35,938 nt of DNA from Gemmatimonadales bacterium (GTDB taxonomy: Bacteria; Gemmatimonadota; Gemmatimonadetes; Gemmatimonadales; GWC2-71-9). Below are positions 12,441-34,841 of this stretch, piece by piece. The stretch is taken from the NCBI GenBank assembly GCA_013694695.1, contig JACDBX010000128.1, forward strand, positions 1-35,938, read 5' to 3'. The notes under the pieces are model-generated. The model saw only the letters and a list, made by a program, of their open reading frames with translations. It was not told the origin of the DNA and did no database searches. A program made the translations under genes and the position numbers. Within the stretch, counting starts at the first letter, position 1. Each line of letters begins with the position of its first letter.

Positions 12441-12507
12441 GCCGAGAGCCGTTAGCCGTAAGGCGTAAGCCGTAGGCCGAAGCTCCTTACGGCTTGTGGC
12501 TATGGCC
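12441..12507. repeat. Heptamer tract: six direct 7-bp units then three inverted ones
   Basis: Direct: GCCGAGA GCCGTTA GCCGTAA GGCGTAA GCCGTAG GCCGAAG (12441-12482); minus strand GGCCATA GCCACAA GCCGTAA (12507-12487). Confidence 0.85.
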
Positions 12508-17612: not shown

Positions 17613-19553
17613 ATGACGACGACCACCGATGACGTGATCCGCGTGACACTCCCCGATGGCTCGGTCCGGGAACTCGGCGCCGGTGCCACCGGGAGCGCAC
17701 TGGCGGCCTCGATCGGACCCGGGCTGGCGCGCGCTGCCGTGGCGATTTCGGTCGATGGTGCCGTCCAGGACCTTGGGCGGCCGCTGCCCGACGGCGCGAC
17801 CGTCTCGATCATCACCGAACGCGATCCCGACGCGCTGGCACTGCTGCGGCATTCGGCGGCGCACATCATGGCGACGGCCGTTCGCGACCTCTTCCCGGGG
17901 GCGGGGATCGGTTTCGGCCCGGCGATCGACGAGGGGTTCTACTACGACTTCGCCGTCGATCGCCCGTTCACGCCGGAGGACCTCGAGGCGATCGAGCGGA
18001 GGATGGACGAGGTGATCACGTCCGACTTTCCGTTCACGCGGGAGGTGGTCGATCGCTCCGAGGCGAAACGGCGCTTTGCCGACGACCCGCTCAAGCTCGA
18101 GCGGATCTCGGAGCTGGGCGACGACGAGACGATCACGGTGTACACCGACGGGCCGTTCGTCGATCTCTGTCGCGGGCCGCACGTGCCGAGCACCGGCAAG
18201 CTCAAGCACTTCAAGCTGCTCAGCGGGGCGGGGGCGTACTGGCGTGGCGATTCAAGCCGCCAGATGCTGCAGCGGATCTACGGCACGGCGTTCTTCCGCA
18301 AGGACGAGCTGGCGCAACACCTGATGCGGCTCGACGAAGCGAAGAAGCGCGACCACCGAGTTCTGGGCAAGCAGCTGGACCTTTTCTTTTTCCACCAGTT
18401 CGCGCCGGGCGCTGCGTTCTGGACCGATCGCGGGACAGCGGTGGTCAACGAGCTTCAGCGCTACATGCAGCAGCTCCAGCGCGACGGCTATCACGAGGTA
18501 CGGACCCCGCTGATGTACAACAAGGGGCTGTGGGAGATCTCGGGGCACTGGGGGAAGTACAAGGAGAACATGTTCCTGGTGCACGACAACGAGACCGGCG
18601 AGCACGATTTCTCACTCAAGCCAATGAACTGCCCATCGCACTACCTGATGTACCAGCAGAAGAAGCACTCGTATCGCGAACTGCCGCTCCGCTACGCGAC
18701 CTACGACGTGCTGCACCGCAACGAGGTGAGTGGTGCGCTCTCGGGGCTCACCCGGGTGCGGCAGTTTTCGCAGGACGATTGCCACATCTTCCTGATGGAC
18801 CGGCAGATCCAGGCAGAGGTGCACCGGCTCACGAATTTCATCCTGAAGTACTACGAGACCTTCGGCCTCAAGGCGACGCTGAAGTTCGCGACCCGGCCCG
18901 AGGAGCGGATCGGCACCGATCAGATGTGGGACGAGGCCGAGCGTGCGCTGCGTCATGCGCTGGAGGCGACGGGGCTGCCGTATGAGTTGAAACCGGGCGA
19001 TGGCGCGTTCTACGGCCCGAAGATTGATTTCGACGTGGAGGATGCGATCGGACGCCGGTGGCAGCTTGGCACAATCCAGCTCGATTACGCCGCGCCGGAA
19101 CGGTTCGATCTGAGCTATGTCGGTGAGGACAACACCACGCATCGTCCGGTGGTGATCCACCGCGCGGTGAATGGTTCGTTCGAGCGCTTCCTGGCGATCC
19201 TGATCGAGCACTTCGCCGGTGCGTTCCCGCTCTGGCTGGCGCCGGAGCAGGTGCGGATCGTCCCGATCAGCGATGCCCAGACCGAGGCAGCAGCCGCGGT
19301 CACGGCACGGATGCGCGACGCAGGAATTCGCGCGCATCTCGATGATCGTCACGAGACGCTCAACTACCGGATCCGCGAGGGCGAGATCGCCAAGGTCCCG
19401 TACATGGCGGTGGTGGGGCAGCGAGAGGCGGAGGGCAATACGCTCGCGGTGCGCACCCGCGGCGCGGGGACGAAGCAGGACGTGGTGGCGGTGGACGAGT
19501 TCGTCGAACGGTTGGTGGGGGATATCAGGGAGAGGCGGTTGGGGCCGGGCTGA
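17613..19553 (+). CDS. thrS: threonine--tRNA ligase
   Basis: TGS-like N-terminus, HSAAHIMATAVRDLFPGAGIGFGPAIDEGFYYDF, MNCPSHYLMYQ, FYGPKIDFDVEDAIGRRWQLGTIQLDY. Confidence 0.97.
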   Translation: MTTTTDDVIRVTLPDGSVRELGAGATGSALAASIGPGLARAAVAISVDGAVQDLGRPLPDGATVSIITERDPDALALLRHSAAHIMATAVRDLFPGAGIGFGPAIDEGFYYDFAVDRPFTPEDLEAIERRMDEVITSDFPFTREVVDRSEAKRRFADDPLKLERISELGDDETITVYTDGPFVDLCRGPHVPSTGKLKHFKLLSGAGAYWRGDSSRQMLQRIYGTAFFRKDELAQHLMRLDEAKKRDHRVLGKQLDLFFFHQFAPGAAFWTDRGTAVVNELQRYMQQLQRDGYHEVRTPLMYNKGLWEISGHWGKYKENMFLVHDNETGEHDFSLKPMNCPSHYLMYQQKKHSYRELPLRYATYDVLHRNEVSGALSGLTRVRQFSQDDCHIFLMDRQIQAEVHRLTNFILKYYETFGLKATLKFATRPEERIGTDQMWDEAERALRHALEATGLPYELKPGDGAFYGPKIDFDVEDAIGRRWQLGTIQLDYAAPERFDLSYVGEDNTTHRPVVIHRAVNGSFERFLAILIEHFAGAFPLWLAPEQVRIVPISDAQTEAAAAVTARMRDAGIRAHLDDRHETLNYRIREGEIAKVPYMAVVGQREAEGNTLAVRTRGAGTKQDVVAVDEFVERLVGDIRERRLGPG

Positions 19554-19556
19554 GGG

Positions 19557-19686
19557 GGTCGTTGGTCGTTGGCTGCGTCAATGGAAGTCGTAAGTCGAGA
19601 GTCGTCAGCTGTGTTCCTGTCGGAGTTGGGCTTCGCCACAGATCACGCCGATTGGATGACGCAGCTGACGACCAACGACCAACGAC
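19557..19686. repeat. Inverted repeat built of 7-bp units
   Basis: Left GTCGTTGGTCGTTGG (19558-19572) and right CCAACGACCAACGAC (19672-19686) are perfect reverse complements; CTGCGTCA (19573-19580)/TGACGCAG (19657-19664) extend the arms, the right arm having one extra 7-nt unit CTGACGA. Confidence 0.85.
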
Positions 19687-19690
19687 TTTC

Positions 19691-19765
19691 CGTCACGCGG
19701 CTCGGTCGTGGGATTCGTCACGCGGGTCGGTCGGGGTCCATCCCGCGGCTCGGTCGGTGCGCCGT
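19691..19765. repeat. Degenerate ~25-bp direct repeat, about 3 copies
   Basis: cgtcacgcggctcggtcgtgggatt / cgtcacgcgggtcggtcggggtcc / atcccgcggctcggtcggtgcgcc. Confidence 0.55.
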
Positions 19766-28240: not shown

Positions 28241-31200
28241 CTACCGAAAATCCCGCGATCTGTGCCCGAACCCCTCCGCCTTGACCGCGCGGTAACGCGT
28301 CGCGATCACCTGGGTGAGCCCACCGTCGCGTTCCACCCGTCCCAGTGCCAGGATGATGATCGCGTAACGCACCGCCTCGCGATCATCACCATCCACCGAC
28401 ACCGGCACAATCACGTTGACATGACCGAACTCGTCCTCCAGCAACAGGAACACCGTCCCCTTGGCGGTCTGCGGACGCTGCCGCGCAATCACCAGCCCCG
28501 ACACCAGCACGGTCTCGCCGTGCCGCACCTGCTGCAGTGACTCGCTGCTCTCGATGCCCAGTCTGGTGAACTTCCGGCGAAACGCCTCCATCGGGTGACC
28601 ATCGAGGCAGAGGCCGGTTGCGAAATAGTCGAGCAGCACACGCGCCTTGCGGCTCATCGGTCGCGGCGTGATCACGGCCTCGCGCGCCGGCGCCAGCGGC
28701 AGGGTGTCGCCCGAGGCACGCAGCGCGATCCACGACGCCCGCCGCGGGTCGGCTTCCCACGCCGCAAACGCCCCGCCGCGCGCCAGGGCGATCGCGTTGC
28801 TGCGCTCCATCCGGGTGCGACGGATGACATCCTCGATGCCGGTGAATGGTTGCTGCGCTCGCGCCACCTGGAGCGCCGTGAGGCCCGTGGTGCCCAAGCC
28901 GCGGATGAAGCGCCAACCGATGCGGAGCGCGGGGCGCGCCGGATCGTCCGCCGGCTCGGTGGTGCAATCGCTCGACCCGTCGCGCAGGCATGGCGGCTTG
29001 AGCGGCACGCCATGGCGCCGCGCATCGTGGATCAGCGTGCTGATCGGGTAGAACCCCATTGGCTGCGCGTTCATCAGGCCAAGGAAGAACTCCGTGGGGT
29101 GGTGCGTCTTGAGCCACGCCGTGACGTATGCAATCAGCGCGAAGCTCCACGCGTGCGATTCGGGGAAGCCATAGTTCGCGAACGAGTGCAGGTCGCTCTC
29201 GATCTCCTCGGCCACCGCCGGTTCGATACCCTTCGCGATCAGTCGCTCCCGAAGCTGTTCCAGCGCTGCCAGCAACTTCTCTTCCTTCCGCATGCTCCCC
29301 ATCGTCCGTCGCAACTGGTCCGCCTCGGCGGGTCGATATCCGGCGAGCTCGATCGCGATCGACATCGCCTGTTCCTGGAAGATCGGGATCCCCTGGGTGC
29401 GCGCCAGGATCGGCTCGAGCTTCGGGTGCGCGTACCGCACCACCTCGCGCCCGCGCCGCCGCTCGGTGTACGGATGAACAAAGCGCGCCATGATCGGCCC
29501 CGGACGGATGAGCGCCACCTGCACGGTGATGTCGTAGAGGCGTTCCGGCTTGGTGTGCATGATCGACGCGATCTGCGCCCGGCTCTCGATCTGGAACATC
29601 CCGATCGTGTCGCCACGCGAGATCAGGTCATACGTCGGCGTGTCGTCCTGCGGCAGTCCGTACATCAGCGGGCGCATCCCGGTGCGCTGCGCGATCGCAT
29701 CGAACGACCGTCGCACCACCGCCAGCGCGCCGAGGCCGAGGAAGTCGAACTTCGGGATCCCCACGATGTCGAGGTCGTCCTTGTCAAACTGGATGATCGA
29801 GCGACCGCGCGTGGTCCACTCGATCGGTGCCCGCTCGCCGAGTGGCTGCGAGGAGAGGACGAATCCACCGGGATGCGTCGAGCGCAACCGCGGGAGATCC
29901 TGCGCAGCGCGCATCGCGGCTAGCAGCATCTGCGCGCGCGGCGTCGTGACATCGAACCCTTGCGCTGCCCCCAGTTCCTGCTCCACCCGTTCGGCGCCGT
30001 GCATGCAATCGTCGTAACGCATCCGCTTCGACATCCGGAACGCGAGCTCGGCGGGATAGCCGAGGGCCCGCATTCCGTCCTGCAGCGCGGTCGAGCCACT
30101 GTAGACCTGGGTGACCGCGGTGATCGCCGAGCGGGTGCGATCGTAGCGGCCATAGACATAGTCGAGCACCTCCTCGCGGCGATCGTGCTCGATGTCCACG
30201 TCGATGTCGGGGGCCTCCGTGCCGCCATCGACGCGGGACTCGGAAAGAAATCGCTCGAAGAGGAGGCCATTCTTCACCGGATCGATCGCGGTGACACCAA
30301 GGCAGTAGGCCACCGCGGAATTGGCGGCGCTGCCGCGTCCCTGGCACAGGATGCCGCGCAGGTGCGCGTAGCGCACCGCGTCCCACATCACGAGGAAGAA
30401 GCCGGCAAACCCGAGCCGACTGATCACGCCGAGTTCGTGATGGAGCTGCTGCTCCTGTTTCGCGCTGAGGGTGCCCCAGCGCTCGCGCGCGCCCTCGAAC
30501 GTCACCATCCGGAGGAAGGCGTCGTCGGTGCTGCCATCGGGGACCGGAAAGGTCGGGAGCGGTGGTCGCACCCAGCGCATGTCGAAGGCACATTCGCTGG
30601 CGATGGCCGCCGCCGCGTCGAGGCCCTGGTGTCGCCCCGTCCATCGCTCCGCCAGCACCGCCGGATCGAGCAGCTCCCATCCGCCGTTGGGGTGACCGAG
30701 CCCGCGCTCGAGCAGCACGTCGACGGTGCAGCGATGGCGGAGTGCCGTCAGGATGTCGTGCATCAACCGCCCGCTCTCGGATATGTAGCGCGCGTCCTGC
30801 GTCACCACCCAGCGCACCCGTGCCCGCTCGGCGAGTTCGATCAGGGCACCGGCCAGCGCGAGTTCGTCATTGCCGGCCTGATGCCATTGCACCTCCACAG
30901 CGATGTTGCCATCGAACTGGTCACGCCACTGGTGCAGCAGGTCGAGCGCTGCCGCACTTTGTCCGTCGCGCACCATCGAGGCGAGGGTGCCCGACGGCGG
31001 ACCGGTGAGGAGTTGCAACCCCTCCGCACGTTCGGCGAGTTGCTGCCAGGTGAGGCGCGGCTGTCCGCGCGACGGGCGCGCCGCATTGGTGCTTGTGAGC
31101 GACCCGCTGCGCGACAGCGTGACCAGCGCGGCCACGTGGCAATAGCCGCTCTCGTTGCGGGCCAGCACGGCCAGCGGCTTGCCATCGACCACCAGTTCGG

Positions 31201-31405
31201 TGCCGACAATCGGCTGGACGCCCGCCGCGCGACACGCCGCACCGAAGCGCACGATCCCGCCGAGGTCGGCGGTGTCGGTGATCGCGAGGGAGCGATACCC
31301 CAGCTCGGCGGCGCGTGCCACCAGTGCTTCGTGTGTCACGGCGCCGTCGCCAAATGAGAACGCGGTGTGCGCGCGCAGCTCGGCAAATGCGATCCGGGGT
31401 GGCAT
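28241..31405 (-). CDS. dnaE2: error-prone DNA polymerase III alpha subunit
   Basis: PHP-like N-terminus ELRAHTAFSFGDGAVTHEALV, GRGSAANSAVAYCLGVTAIDP, RVDGGTEAPDIDVDIEHDRREEVLDYVYGRYDR, IFQEQAMSIAIELAGY; start set at MPPRIAFAE (31405). Confidence 0.93.
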   Translation of the reverse strand: MPPRIAFAELRAHTAFSFGDGAVTHEALVARAAELGYRSLAITDTADLGGIVRFGAACRAAGVQPIVGTELVVDGKPLAVLARNESGYCHVAALVTLSRSGSLTSTNAARPSRGQPRLTWQQLAERAEGLQLLTGPPSGTLASMVRDGQSAAALDLLHQWRDQFDGNIAVEVQWHQAGNDELALAGALIELAERARVRWVVTQDARYISESGRLMHDILTALRHRCTVDVLLERGLGHPNGGWELLDPAVLAERWTGRHQGLDAAAAIASECAFDMRWVRPPLPTFPVPDGSTDDAFLRMVTFEGARERWGTLSAKQEQQLHHELGVISRLGFAGFFLVMWDAVRYAHLRGILCQGRGSAANSAVAYCLGVTAIDPVKNGLLFERFLSESRVDGGTEAPDIDVDIEHDRREEVLDYVYGRYDRTRSAITAVTQVYSGSTALQDGMRALGYPAELAFRMSKRMRYDDCMHGAERVEQELGAAQGFDVTTPRAQMLLAAMRAAQDLPRLRSTHPGGFVLSSQPLGERAPIEWTTRGRSIIQFDKDDLDIVGIPKFDFLGLGALAVVRRSFDAIAQRTGMRPLMYGLPQDDTPTYDLISRGDTIGMFQIESRAQIASIMHTKPERLYDITVQVALIRPGPIMARFVHPYTERRRGREVVRYAHPKLEPILARTQGIPIFQEQAMSIAIELAGYRPAEADQLRRTMGSMRKEEKLLAALEQLRERLIAKGIEPAVAEEIESDLHSFANYGFPESHAWSFALIAYVTAWLKTHHPTEFFLGLMNAQPMGFYPISTLIHDARRHGVPLKPPCLRDGSSDCTTEPADDPARPALRIGWRFIRGLGTTGLTALQVARAQQPFTGIEDVIRRTRMERSNAIALARGGAFAAWEADPRRASWIALRASGDTLPLAPAREAVITPRPMSRKARVLLDYFATGLCLDGHPMEAFRRKFTRLGIESSESLQQVRHGETVLVSGLVIARQRPQTAKGTVFLLLEDEFGHVNVIVPVSVDGDDREAVRYAIIILALGRVERDGGLTQVIATRYRAVKAEGFGHRSRDFR

Positions 31406-31407
31406 GA

Positions 31408-32751
31408 TCAATCCCACACACCGGCGAGATACCAGCGCTCGGGGCGCGGTTCGCGGAACATCAACACCACTGATCCGTCGGTGCGTACGCCTTGGTAGTA
31501 CTCGCGAGCGATGGGTGCGTCGAAATCGTTGCCCGCCATGCATTGCGGGCCGAGGCTGTGGGAGAGTGGCACCGCAAGGCCGTTGTCGACGTAGCGCCGC
31601 GGGGTGGGGAAGCCGCGCTGGATCTCGGCGGAGACATCGATCTCGCGCGGCGTGGGGAGGAGGCGAAGGACGAGATGACCGTAGGCCATAAGCCGTAGGC
31701 CCGCACCGGGCGGCTGACGGCTGACGGCTGACGGCCCGTCCGTTGTCGAGCCCTTCCTCATCTCATCGAGATCTGGTGCCAGCTCTGCCTTCCACCGAGT
31801 TCTGCGTTCCGGCAGCACGTGTTGGGTGCGCGTGGCCACCGCCACTGCATCGGGTTGCATGTCGATCACGTGGGCCACGGCGGCTTCGGCGGCCTGTGCC
31901 GATGCGAAGCCGAGGTCGAAGAGGTCGCCCTGACGAATCGGTGGCGGGCCGGTAGCATCGACATCGATGGCGATGCCGGCGACGCGATCGGGGAGGGTGA
32001 TTCGTTCGAGTGCGCGGCGCACCAGTCGGAGCCAGAGCTTGCGATCGAAGGAGGGGCGCGCCGAGCCGACGTGCTGTAGCAGCGTTTTGCCGCCCTCGAG
32101 GGCGAGGGTGATGGTGATCGAGCGGGCGCCGAGTCCGTCATGCGCGAGGGCGTTACAGATGGTGCCGAGCATGGAGTGCATCACGAAGACGAGTTGTTCG
32201 ATGTCGGTGGTGGAGAACTCGGTCCAATCGATCGATGCGTTGGGGAGGGTGCGCGGCTGGGCGCGGAAGATCAGCCGCGAGTCGTCGGCGCGCGAGAGCT
32301 TCCAGCAGGTGAGGCCGTCACGTCCGAAGCGTACTTCCACCGATTCGCGGTCGAGGGCGGCGAGATCGCTGCAGTGCTCGAGGCCCACGCTGGTGAAGAG
32401 CGAGGCGAGTCGGGGTGGCGGGGCAAGCACCACGAGGGGGAGCGAGGCGAGGAAGCGACGTTCCGACCCGCGTGGGATGATGAGGGATGACGTGGCCACG
32501 TATCGGGCGGCGATGGAGGCCACTGCCGGGACGTGTGAGGCAGCGGCGTGCACCCCGGTGATGCCCAATTCGCTCGCGACCACGAGGGCACGATGTGCCA
32601 GGTCGTCCACATCCAGGCCGCGGGCATCGAGCCAGGCGAGCCCGTCGCGGGCGGCGATCGTGGCTCGCGGGGCGAGGGCGAGGAGCCGGAACGGCAGCTC
32701 GTGGGCGGCCACGCCTGTGGGCCAGTCGGGGATGGAGAGGGCGAGGAACAT
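31408..32751 (-). CDS. imuB: ImuB-like Y-family polymerase paralogue
   Basis: MFLALSIPDWPT start (32751); SLFTSVGLEHCSDLAALDRESVEVRFG, C-terminal REYYQGVRTDGSVVLMFREPRPERWYLAGVWD; directly upstream of dnaE2. Confidence 0.8.
   Translation of the reverse strand: MFLALSIPDWPTGVAAHELPFRLLALAPRATIAARDGLAWLDARGLDVDDLAHRALVVASELGITGVHAAASHVPAVASIAARYVATSSLIIPRGSERRFLASLPLVVLAPPPRLASLFTSVGLEHCSDLAALDRESVEVRFGRDGLTCWKLSRADDSRLIFRAQPRTLPNASIDWTEFSTTDIEQLVFVMHSMLGTICNALAHDGLGARSITITLALEGGKTLLQHVGSARPSFDRKLWLRLVRRALERITLPDRVAGIAIDVDATGPPPIRQGDLFDLGFASAQAAEAAVAHVIDMQPDAVAVATRTQHVLPERRTRWKAELAPDLDEMRKGSTTDGPSAVSRQPPGAGLRLMAYGHLVLRLLPTPREIDVSAEIQRGFPTPRRYVDNGLAVPLSHSLGPQCMAGNDFDAPIAREYYQGVRTDGSVVLMFREPRPERWYLAGVWD
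31679..31735. repeat. Heptamer tracts inside the imuB-like ORF
   Basis: CCGTAGG CCATAAG CCGTAGG (31679-31699) and CGGCTGA x3 then CGG (31711-31734). Confidence 0.9.
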
Positions 32752-32796
32752 GGGGCCGGGAACTGTAAACCGAATAAACGCCGAAAGCGAGGGGGA

Positions 32797-32852
32797 GAGA
32801 CTAGAGACTAGAGGAGAACGGAGAACGGAGAACGGATGACCGATGACGGGGA
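32797..32852. repeat. Drifting heptamer tract, 8 contiguous 7-bp units
   Basis: GAGACTA GAGACTA GAGGAGA ACGGAGA ACGGAGA ACGGATG ACCGATG ACGGGGA. Confidence 0.9.
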
Positions 32853-32950: not shown

Positions 32951-33955
32951 GTGCACGCTCCGCAGTCGAAAACGAAACTATTGCACCAACTGCAGTCCAA
33001 CATGCGCCTGCGGCAGATGAGTCCGCGGACCATTGCGGCGTACACCGGCTGGATACGGCGGTATGTCCGGTTCCATCGACTACGTCATCCCCGGGAACTC
33101 GGTGTTGCGGAGGTTCGCGCATTCCTGACGTGGCTGGTGGGTGAGGGGCGGGTGTCGCAATCGACGCAGGCGCAGGCCCTGGCGGCGCTCCTCTTCCTCT
33201 ACCACCATGTGCTCGATCTGCCGCTCGAGGGGCTGGGCCGACTCCCGCGTGGGCGAGCGCCGACGCGGCTGCCGGTGGTCCTCACGCGGGACGAGGTCCA
33301 GCGGGTGATAGGGCGGCTTGATGGCGTGTACCGTCTGCTGGGCTTATTGCTGTACGGCGGTGGGATGCGGTTGATGGAGGGGATCACACTGCGGGTCAAG
33401 GACCTGGATCTCGAGCGGCGCGAGATCGTGATCCGGCGGGGGAAGGGAGCGAAGGACCGGGTCACGGTGCTGCCCGCGGCGGTGGTCGATCCATTGTGGG
33501 ACCATCTGGCCCGGACGCAGGCGCGACACCGCCAAGACTTGAGTGAGCAGGCGGGATGGGTGGCGATTCCCGGGGCGCTCGATCGGAAGTATCCGAACGC
33601 GGGGCGGAGTTGGCCGTGGCAGTGGCTCTTTCCGGCGACGCGACGGCACCGAGACGCCGGGAGCGGGAAGCTGCAACGGCATCACCTGCACGAGAGTGCG
33701 ATGCAGCGGGCGATGACCGGGGCGGTGCGGGCGAGCGGGATCGGCAAACGGGCGAGCTGTCACACTCTGCGGCATTCGTTTGCGACGCACCTGCTCGAGG
33801 CGGGATACGACATCCGAACAGTGCAGGAGCTGTTGGGGCACCGTGACGTCACGACAACGATGATCTACACCCACGTGCTCAACCGCGGCGGGCTTGGGGT
33901 GCGGAGTCCAGCGGACGGACTTGACCTTTCCGACCTCGCGAGGTTCCCGGATTAG
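32951..33955 (+). CDS. intI: integron integrase (IntI-type tyrosine recombinase); ORF open from 32843
   Basis: [18 protein letters not shown] (catalytic Arg), IntI-specific insertion [99 protein letters not shown]. Confidence 0.95.
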
Positions 33956-34098: not shown

Positions 34099-34527
34099 AT
34101 GGCTCGGCGGGTGGTTCTCGACACGAACGTCCTCGTGGCTGCCCTGCGGTCTCAGCGGGGCGCTTCTGCTGCCGTCTTGCGGCGGGTAGGGACAGGGCAG
34201 TTCGAATTCTGCCTGTCCGTGGCCCTGCTACTGGAATACGAAAGCGTCTTGAAGCGCCGCAGTACTGGGATCACACTATCGCCAGCGGCCATCGCCGACA
34301 TTCTGGACTATCTGGCCAAAGTGGGGCAGGCGCAGGAGATCTTTTTTCTTTGGCGTCCGATTTTGCCGGATTCGGGCGATGATCATGTGCTTGAGGTGGC
34401 AGTGGCGGGCAGGTGTGACACGATTGTCACCTTCAACCGACGCGATTTTCGGGGTGCCGAGAAATTTGGCCTCGTCGTCGCGCCCCCAGCAGCGTTCCTG
34501 ACGGACCTGCAGAGCGAGGAATCATGA
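34099..34527 (+). CDS. PIN-domain toxin of a toxin-antitoxin pair
   Basis: RRVVLDTNVLVAALRSQRGASAAVLRR... LPDSGDDHVLEVAVAGRCDTIVTFNRRDF (PIN acidic residues). Confidence 0.9.
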   Translation: MARRVVLDTNVLVAALRSQRGASAAVLRRVGTGQFEFCLSVALLLEYESVLKRRSTGITLSPAAIADILDYLAKVGQAQEIFFLWRPILPDSGDDHVLEVAVAGRCDTIVTFNRRDFRGAEKFGLVVAPPAAFLTDLQSEES

Positions 34528-34841
34528 GTGCGATGAGTTTGCGACTCCCGAACTCTCTCCACGAGGCCGCCAAGGACCTGGCGGAGCGGGAGGGTGTTTC
34601 CGTCAACCAGTTGGTGGCCACCGCCTTGGCTGAAAAGCTCTCGGCGCTGATGACGGTCGAGCACCTGCGCGCTCGCGGGGAACGGGGAAGCCGGGCAAAG
34701 TTTCTCGCGGCGATGGCGAGGGCGCCCGATCTTGCACCGGCTCCGCAGGATCGACTGCCGGAGCAAAAGGTGTCTAACAAGCGGTTGCAGGCGACGAAGC
34801 CGCGGCCGACCGCTCGGCGTGCGCCGGCGCGGAAGAAATAG
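34524..34841 (+). CDS. ribbon-helix-helix (HicB-family-like) antitoxin
   Basis: MSLRLPNSLHEAAKDLAEREGVSVNQLVATALAEKL; ATGA overlap with PIN toxin; C-terminus runs into the attC. Confidence 0.82.
   Translation: MSAMSLRLPNSLHEAAKDLAEREGVSVNQLVATALAEKLSALMTVEHLRARGERGSRAKFLAAMARAPDLAPAPQDRLPEQKVSNKRLQATKPRPTARRAPARKK

Follow-up and report, generated by a model that had tools for sequence, protein, structure and literature searches.

The imuB-like gene of a Gemmatimonadales bacterium carries a 57-bp inverted repeat built of heptamers, which is very probably one copy of a dispersed, hairpin-forming and normally intergenic heptamer repeat, lying in frame in the disordered linker of ImuB. The window, that is, the whole 35,938-nucleotide stretch analysed (contig JACDBX010000128.1), contains the following features around this repeat.

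31408..32751, minus strand: imuB-like gene, 447 aa, truncated Y-family polymerase homologue
28241..31405, minus strand: dnaE2, error-prone DNA polymerase, above the cut-off of NCBIfam NF004225
31679..31735, minus strand: heptamer inverted repeat, 57 bp, in-frame insertion at imuB residues about 339–357
31679..31699: arm A, imperfect heptamers CCGTAGG CCATAAG CCGTAGG
31711..31735: arm B, CGGCTGA x3.6, perfect

Positions 31679–31699 read CCGTAGGCCATAAGCCGTAGG, three heptamers of which the middle one deviates, and positions 31711–31735 read CGGCTGACGGCTGACGGCTGACGGC, 3.6 perfect copies. The sequence-only reading had placed both heptamer blocks within the imuB ORF, and both are confirmed to be in frame in the 447-aa minus-strand ORF. 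What it did not notice is that the two arms are complementary and make up one imperfect inverted repeat of 57 bp, whose DNA fold is moderately better than those of dinucleotide shuffles (z −2.06). On the coding strand, arm B consists of GCCGTCA units without stops in any frame. The whole 57 bp aligns to a segment of the window's own genome (G000:C53:238-294, 77% identity, E 7.9e-6), where AAGCCAT/AAGCCGT units face ATGGCTT/ACGGCTT units in a long, almost perfect hairpin.

A period of 7 bp dominates the short repeats of this genome. In 764 kb, 58 period-7 arrays are found, while every other period from 4 to 12 gives at most seven; with a match run of at least 11, there are 32 arrays in 570 kb versus about 1.3 expected in order-3 Markov sequence. 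By the gene calls of a simple home-made gene finder, 55 of the 58 arrays fall outside gene interiors, even though 91% of the sequence is covered by predicted genes. A second genome of the same genus (G001) holds 25 period-7 arrays, 21 of them outside gene interiors, and no such array is found in the 120 kb scanned of G006. Blocks of different heptamers frequently abut (for example GGTCATC, TCTCTAG and TCTCTCA in L040), and an inverted arm is present in 6 of 27 heptamer clusters. The AAGCCGT/ACGGCTT family, to which the imuB unit belongs, occurs at 10 loci by one pattern, with 22 matches versus 0 for the reversed control. Outside imuB the family is seen at ten loci (nine by pattern, and window position 12465), all of them intergenic by the same gene calls and many forming strong hairpins. 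The window contains further arrays in intergenic positions.

12447..12483, intergenic: AGCCGTA-type array of the same family as the imuB repeat, followed by a complementary stretch
32796..32836, intergenic, in the gap that separates imuB from the integron integrase gene: heptamer arrays, AGAGACT x2.6 and GGAGAAC x3.4

A repeat of similar design with other units is located at window positions 19550–19700, where heptamer arms GGTCGTT / ACGACCA form a long inverted repeat with a fold of −75 kcal/mol.

The over-representation of the 7-bp period above other periods and the mainly intergenic location are those of heptameric simple sequence repeats, and the imuB repeat is a member of this known class of bacterial heptamer repeats. 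The class includes GGGAATC in Xanthomonas and GGGGATT in Nostoc (PMC4692102) and TAACTGA in Beggiatoaceae (PMC4679880). These repeats and the present ones share a strict 7-bp period, many loci, mostly intergenic positions and few units at each. Unlike them, the present arrays often join many unit sequences, some include a second arm in inverted orientation, and the genes of one protein family contain copies repeatedly. Searches of open-licence PMC papers found no report of heptamers in Gemmatimonadota or of repeats in ImuB.

An alternative is that the repeat is a mobile palindromic element, similar to REP/MITE or RPE elements, of which the whole hairpin is copied and inserted as a unit, sometimes into genes. 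Arm-loop-arm copies at several loci, the similarity to the C53 segment over the entire length of the imuB repeat, and the hairpins that G001 and G009 have in each of the two ImuB linkers are consistent with such an element. However, units vary between and within loci, many arrays are single-armed, and no fixed termini, target duplication or transposase is seen at the copies examined. The ends of the hairpin copies are also variable, and presence versus absence in imuB is judged against one 54%-identical homologue only. We consider this a serious alternative, though a less likely one.

Rickettsia palindromic elements are palindromic repeats found in frame within protein genes. By analogy, the imuB repeat may be likened to them in being palindromic and in frame in a protein gene, but its arms are heptamer arrays, it has no fixed consensus or termini, and its relatives are mostly intergenic.

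The identity of the gene and of the region that holds the repeat should be described here. The Pfam search of the product gave no family at E ≤ 0.001, so the assignment as ImuB is based on weak profile hits and on architecture. Residues 58–295 are similar to Pol IV / IMS_C, with matches that are weak and below curated cut-offs. They are accompanied by a clamp-type motif, QGDLF, at residues 274–278, by a C-terminal beta domain at residues 362–446, which we take as ImuB-C, and by linkage to dnaE2. The motif QGD.FD is invariant in relatives, and the AlphaFold model has a helix at residues 285–298 after it. The imuB gene is directly upstream of dnaE2, whose ATG at 31405 is 2 nt past the imuB stop; an in-frame GTG farther upstream, at 31417, is a possible alternative start. 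A Y-family homologue, a clamp-type motif followed by a helix-strand region and a linker, a C-terminal beta domain and an adjacent dnaE2 are all common to previously described ImuB proteins and this one. The differences are that the N-terminal part is shorter here and that heptamer inserts lengthen the linkers of several Gemmatimonadota ImuB proteins. A search of genome contigs gave no matches with the single imuB protein as the query, while an alignment query found 52 loci, almost all in Gemmatimonadota.

In mycobacterial ImuB, a linker separates RecA-NT and ImuB-C (PMC11791113). In the AlphaFold model of the imuB product, residues 322–360 have pLDDT below 50 and lie between two confident parts. 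Since QGDLF precedes this segment and the beta domain follows it, the segment is apparently, judged by architecture in a distant homologue, the corresponding linker. In this model-based assignment, the insert-bearing linker would join the clamp/RecA-NT part of ImuB to the C-terminal domain. The lengths of 31 Gemmatimonadota ImuB proteins vary mainly at residues ~85, 325–357 and 436. Aligning homologues had been proposed in the sequence-only reading as a way to see whether the segment is an insertion, and it is one, in frame: between the same anchors there are 57 residues in the window's ImuB versus 38 in the 54%-identical ImuB of G006, a member of the same genus that does not have the segment. 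Removal of the 57 bp in silico preserves the imuB frame. In the ImuB tree, G006 groups with G001 and G009, with G000 outside (support 80/86), so that one gain and one loss, or two gains, of the linker-2 hairpin are both possible.

Heptamer arrays recur in other ImuB genes. Of the 62 others compared in Gemmatimonadota, 7 contain such an array, as do 7 of 551 genes flanking ImuB genes (an odds ratio of 9.9, with p 1.5e-4 by the Fisher test and 2e-4 by a Poisson test). Other repeat periods are not comparably raised in ImuB, except 14, which is two heptamers. The homologues compared are related to each other, the gene calls come from a simple finder, and the controls were flanking genes rather than linker-rich proteins; the enrichment is therefore to be read as recurrent acceptance and not as targeting. 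The ImuB of G001 has five heptamer arrays; both of its linkers contain hairpins, as do both linkers of the G009 ImuB, where the hairpins are imperfect. In the ImuB of G049 (L010), a repeat-derived insertion, GGSQVAVGSSQFAVGSSQLTV, lies in a loop near the C-terminus at residues about 537–562; this is a third site of heptamer-like inserts in ImuB.

The inserts of the ImuB homologues are always in frame, and nearly all the homologues listed have no internal stop. Over three successive heptamers every frame is read, and a stop codon within the unit must therefore end translation sooner or later. The usual unit of the family in the imuB orientation is GCCGTAA, which holds TAA, but imuB reads GCCGTCA instead. 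In G001, TGA is present in two of three units, but GAA stands in the one unit where TGA would fall in frame. Linker-2 heptamers are present or absent between relatives at about 80% DNA identity, and the indels of heptamer material among near relatives add up to a length divisible by three, as with the 38+4 bp by which L185 and L205 differ. The altered stop units and the frame-preserving indels look like signs that selection keeps the linker open.

The enrichment of heptamers in ImuB over other genes might reflect more than tolerance. A stronger proposal is that heptamer hairpins insert or expand preferentially in the linkers of Gemmatimonadota ImuB. The 7-nt slippage that shapes intergenic DNA would then let a mutasome gene change the length of its own tether, or give rise to rare fusions of ImuB and DnaE2 by frameshift. 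We regard this proposal as improbable.

The sequence-only reading had seen in the tract the architecture of a contingency locus and a possible phase-variable mutasome switch. At such a locus, 7-bp slippage would toggle full-length and C-terminally altered ImuB and hence turn mutagenesis on and off. The part of it that stands is the frame effect: gain or loss of one 7-bp unit was said to shift the frame and remove the ImuB C-terminus, and in silico such a change shifts the frame before the conserved C-terminal domain and would destroy or remove ImuB-C. Loss of one unit gives a 427-aa ImuB with a scrambled C-terminus, and gain of one unit leaves the frame open into dnaE2, with a predicted product of 1252 aa. 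The variable presence of linker heptamers among the relatives of about 80% identity would also fit a switch. The rest of the claim is not supported, given the genome-wide, mostly intergenic distribution of kindred repeats, the shortness of the tract and the homologues that all remain in frame. Perfect units number only 3.6 in arm B and none in arm A, a copy number ordinary for the genome, whereas the proven phase-variable heptamer tract of Haemophilus influenzae hmw1A has 11–24 units (PMC8262952); by this measure the imuB tract is not long and pure enough to be hypermutable. Both tracts consist of 7-bp tandem units, but that of hmw1A is in a promoter with measured variation, and that of imuB is in coding sequence and known from one genome. 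The frame opened by +7 bp is not conserved in relatives and is probably open into dnaE2 by chance at high G+C; a conserved programmed ImuB-DnaE2 frameshift fusion is rejected on the same observation. Even the off state of a switch is uncertain, since Mycobacterium smegmatis ImuB without ImuB-C retains ImuA' binding in vitro (PMC11791113). A phase-variable mutasome switch at the imuB heptamers is thus unsupported, and we find it barely credible. One perfect heptamer array of ~18 units in G001 (L089-L092, L114-L133), far above all others in length, would be a more promising place than the imuB tract to look for length polymorphism.

The repeat could also act at the RNA or DNA level, with a hairpin in the imuB message tuning expression or translation of imuB-dnaE2. 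Linker 1 folds better than shuffles in G009 (z −5.3) and G001 (z −7.4), as does linker 2 (z −2.8 and −4.1, respectively), and the spacing of only 2 nt between the two genes would suit such a role. However, the whole linker-2 region of the window's imuB barely exceeds shuffles (z −1.1), and G006 and most homologues have no hairpin at the linker site. Such a role seems very improbable.

A dispersed intergenic repeat tolerated in the linker could have arisen as follows. Arrays would grow in 7-nt steps by replication slippage, and the inverted arm would arise through hairpin-templated synthesis or template switching; we infer this to be the most economical account of the origin. Inserts that leave the frame intact and contain no in-frame stop would be retained, since the linker places few demands on sequence, and repeats would persist where the sequence is not needed, namely in intergenic DNA and a few disordered linkers. 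In imuB, the insert most likely does no more than extend a flexible tether, with little predicted effect on mutasome function, and is very probably not a switch. Polymerase slippage for bacterial heptamers is a suggestion of an earlier survey, reported in PMC4692102 and PMC4679880, and is so far only a proposed mechanism for the bacterial bias to 7-nt units. The genome-wide pattern takes the place of the switch story: the short repeats typical of this lineage are heptamers, and where a linker tolerates them they are sometimes translated. The recurrence in ImuB, mildly surprising in itself, offers a modest and testable example of how noncoding repeats can supply sequence to disordered linkers of proteins.

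The surroundings of the imuB-dnaE2 pair should also be noted. An integron integrase gene (32951–33955, plus strand; TIGR02249, 428.9 bits versus a cut-off of 265) adjoins the pair and points away from it. Just downstream of it, at 34111–34841 on the plus strand, a PIN-domain toxin-like gene is followed by a small YlcI/YnfO-type gene; the two possibly form a toxin-antitoxin pair, and their place next to the integrase gene makes them a candidate integron cassette.
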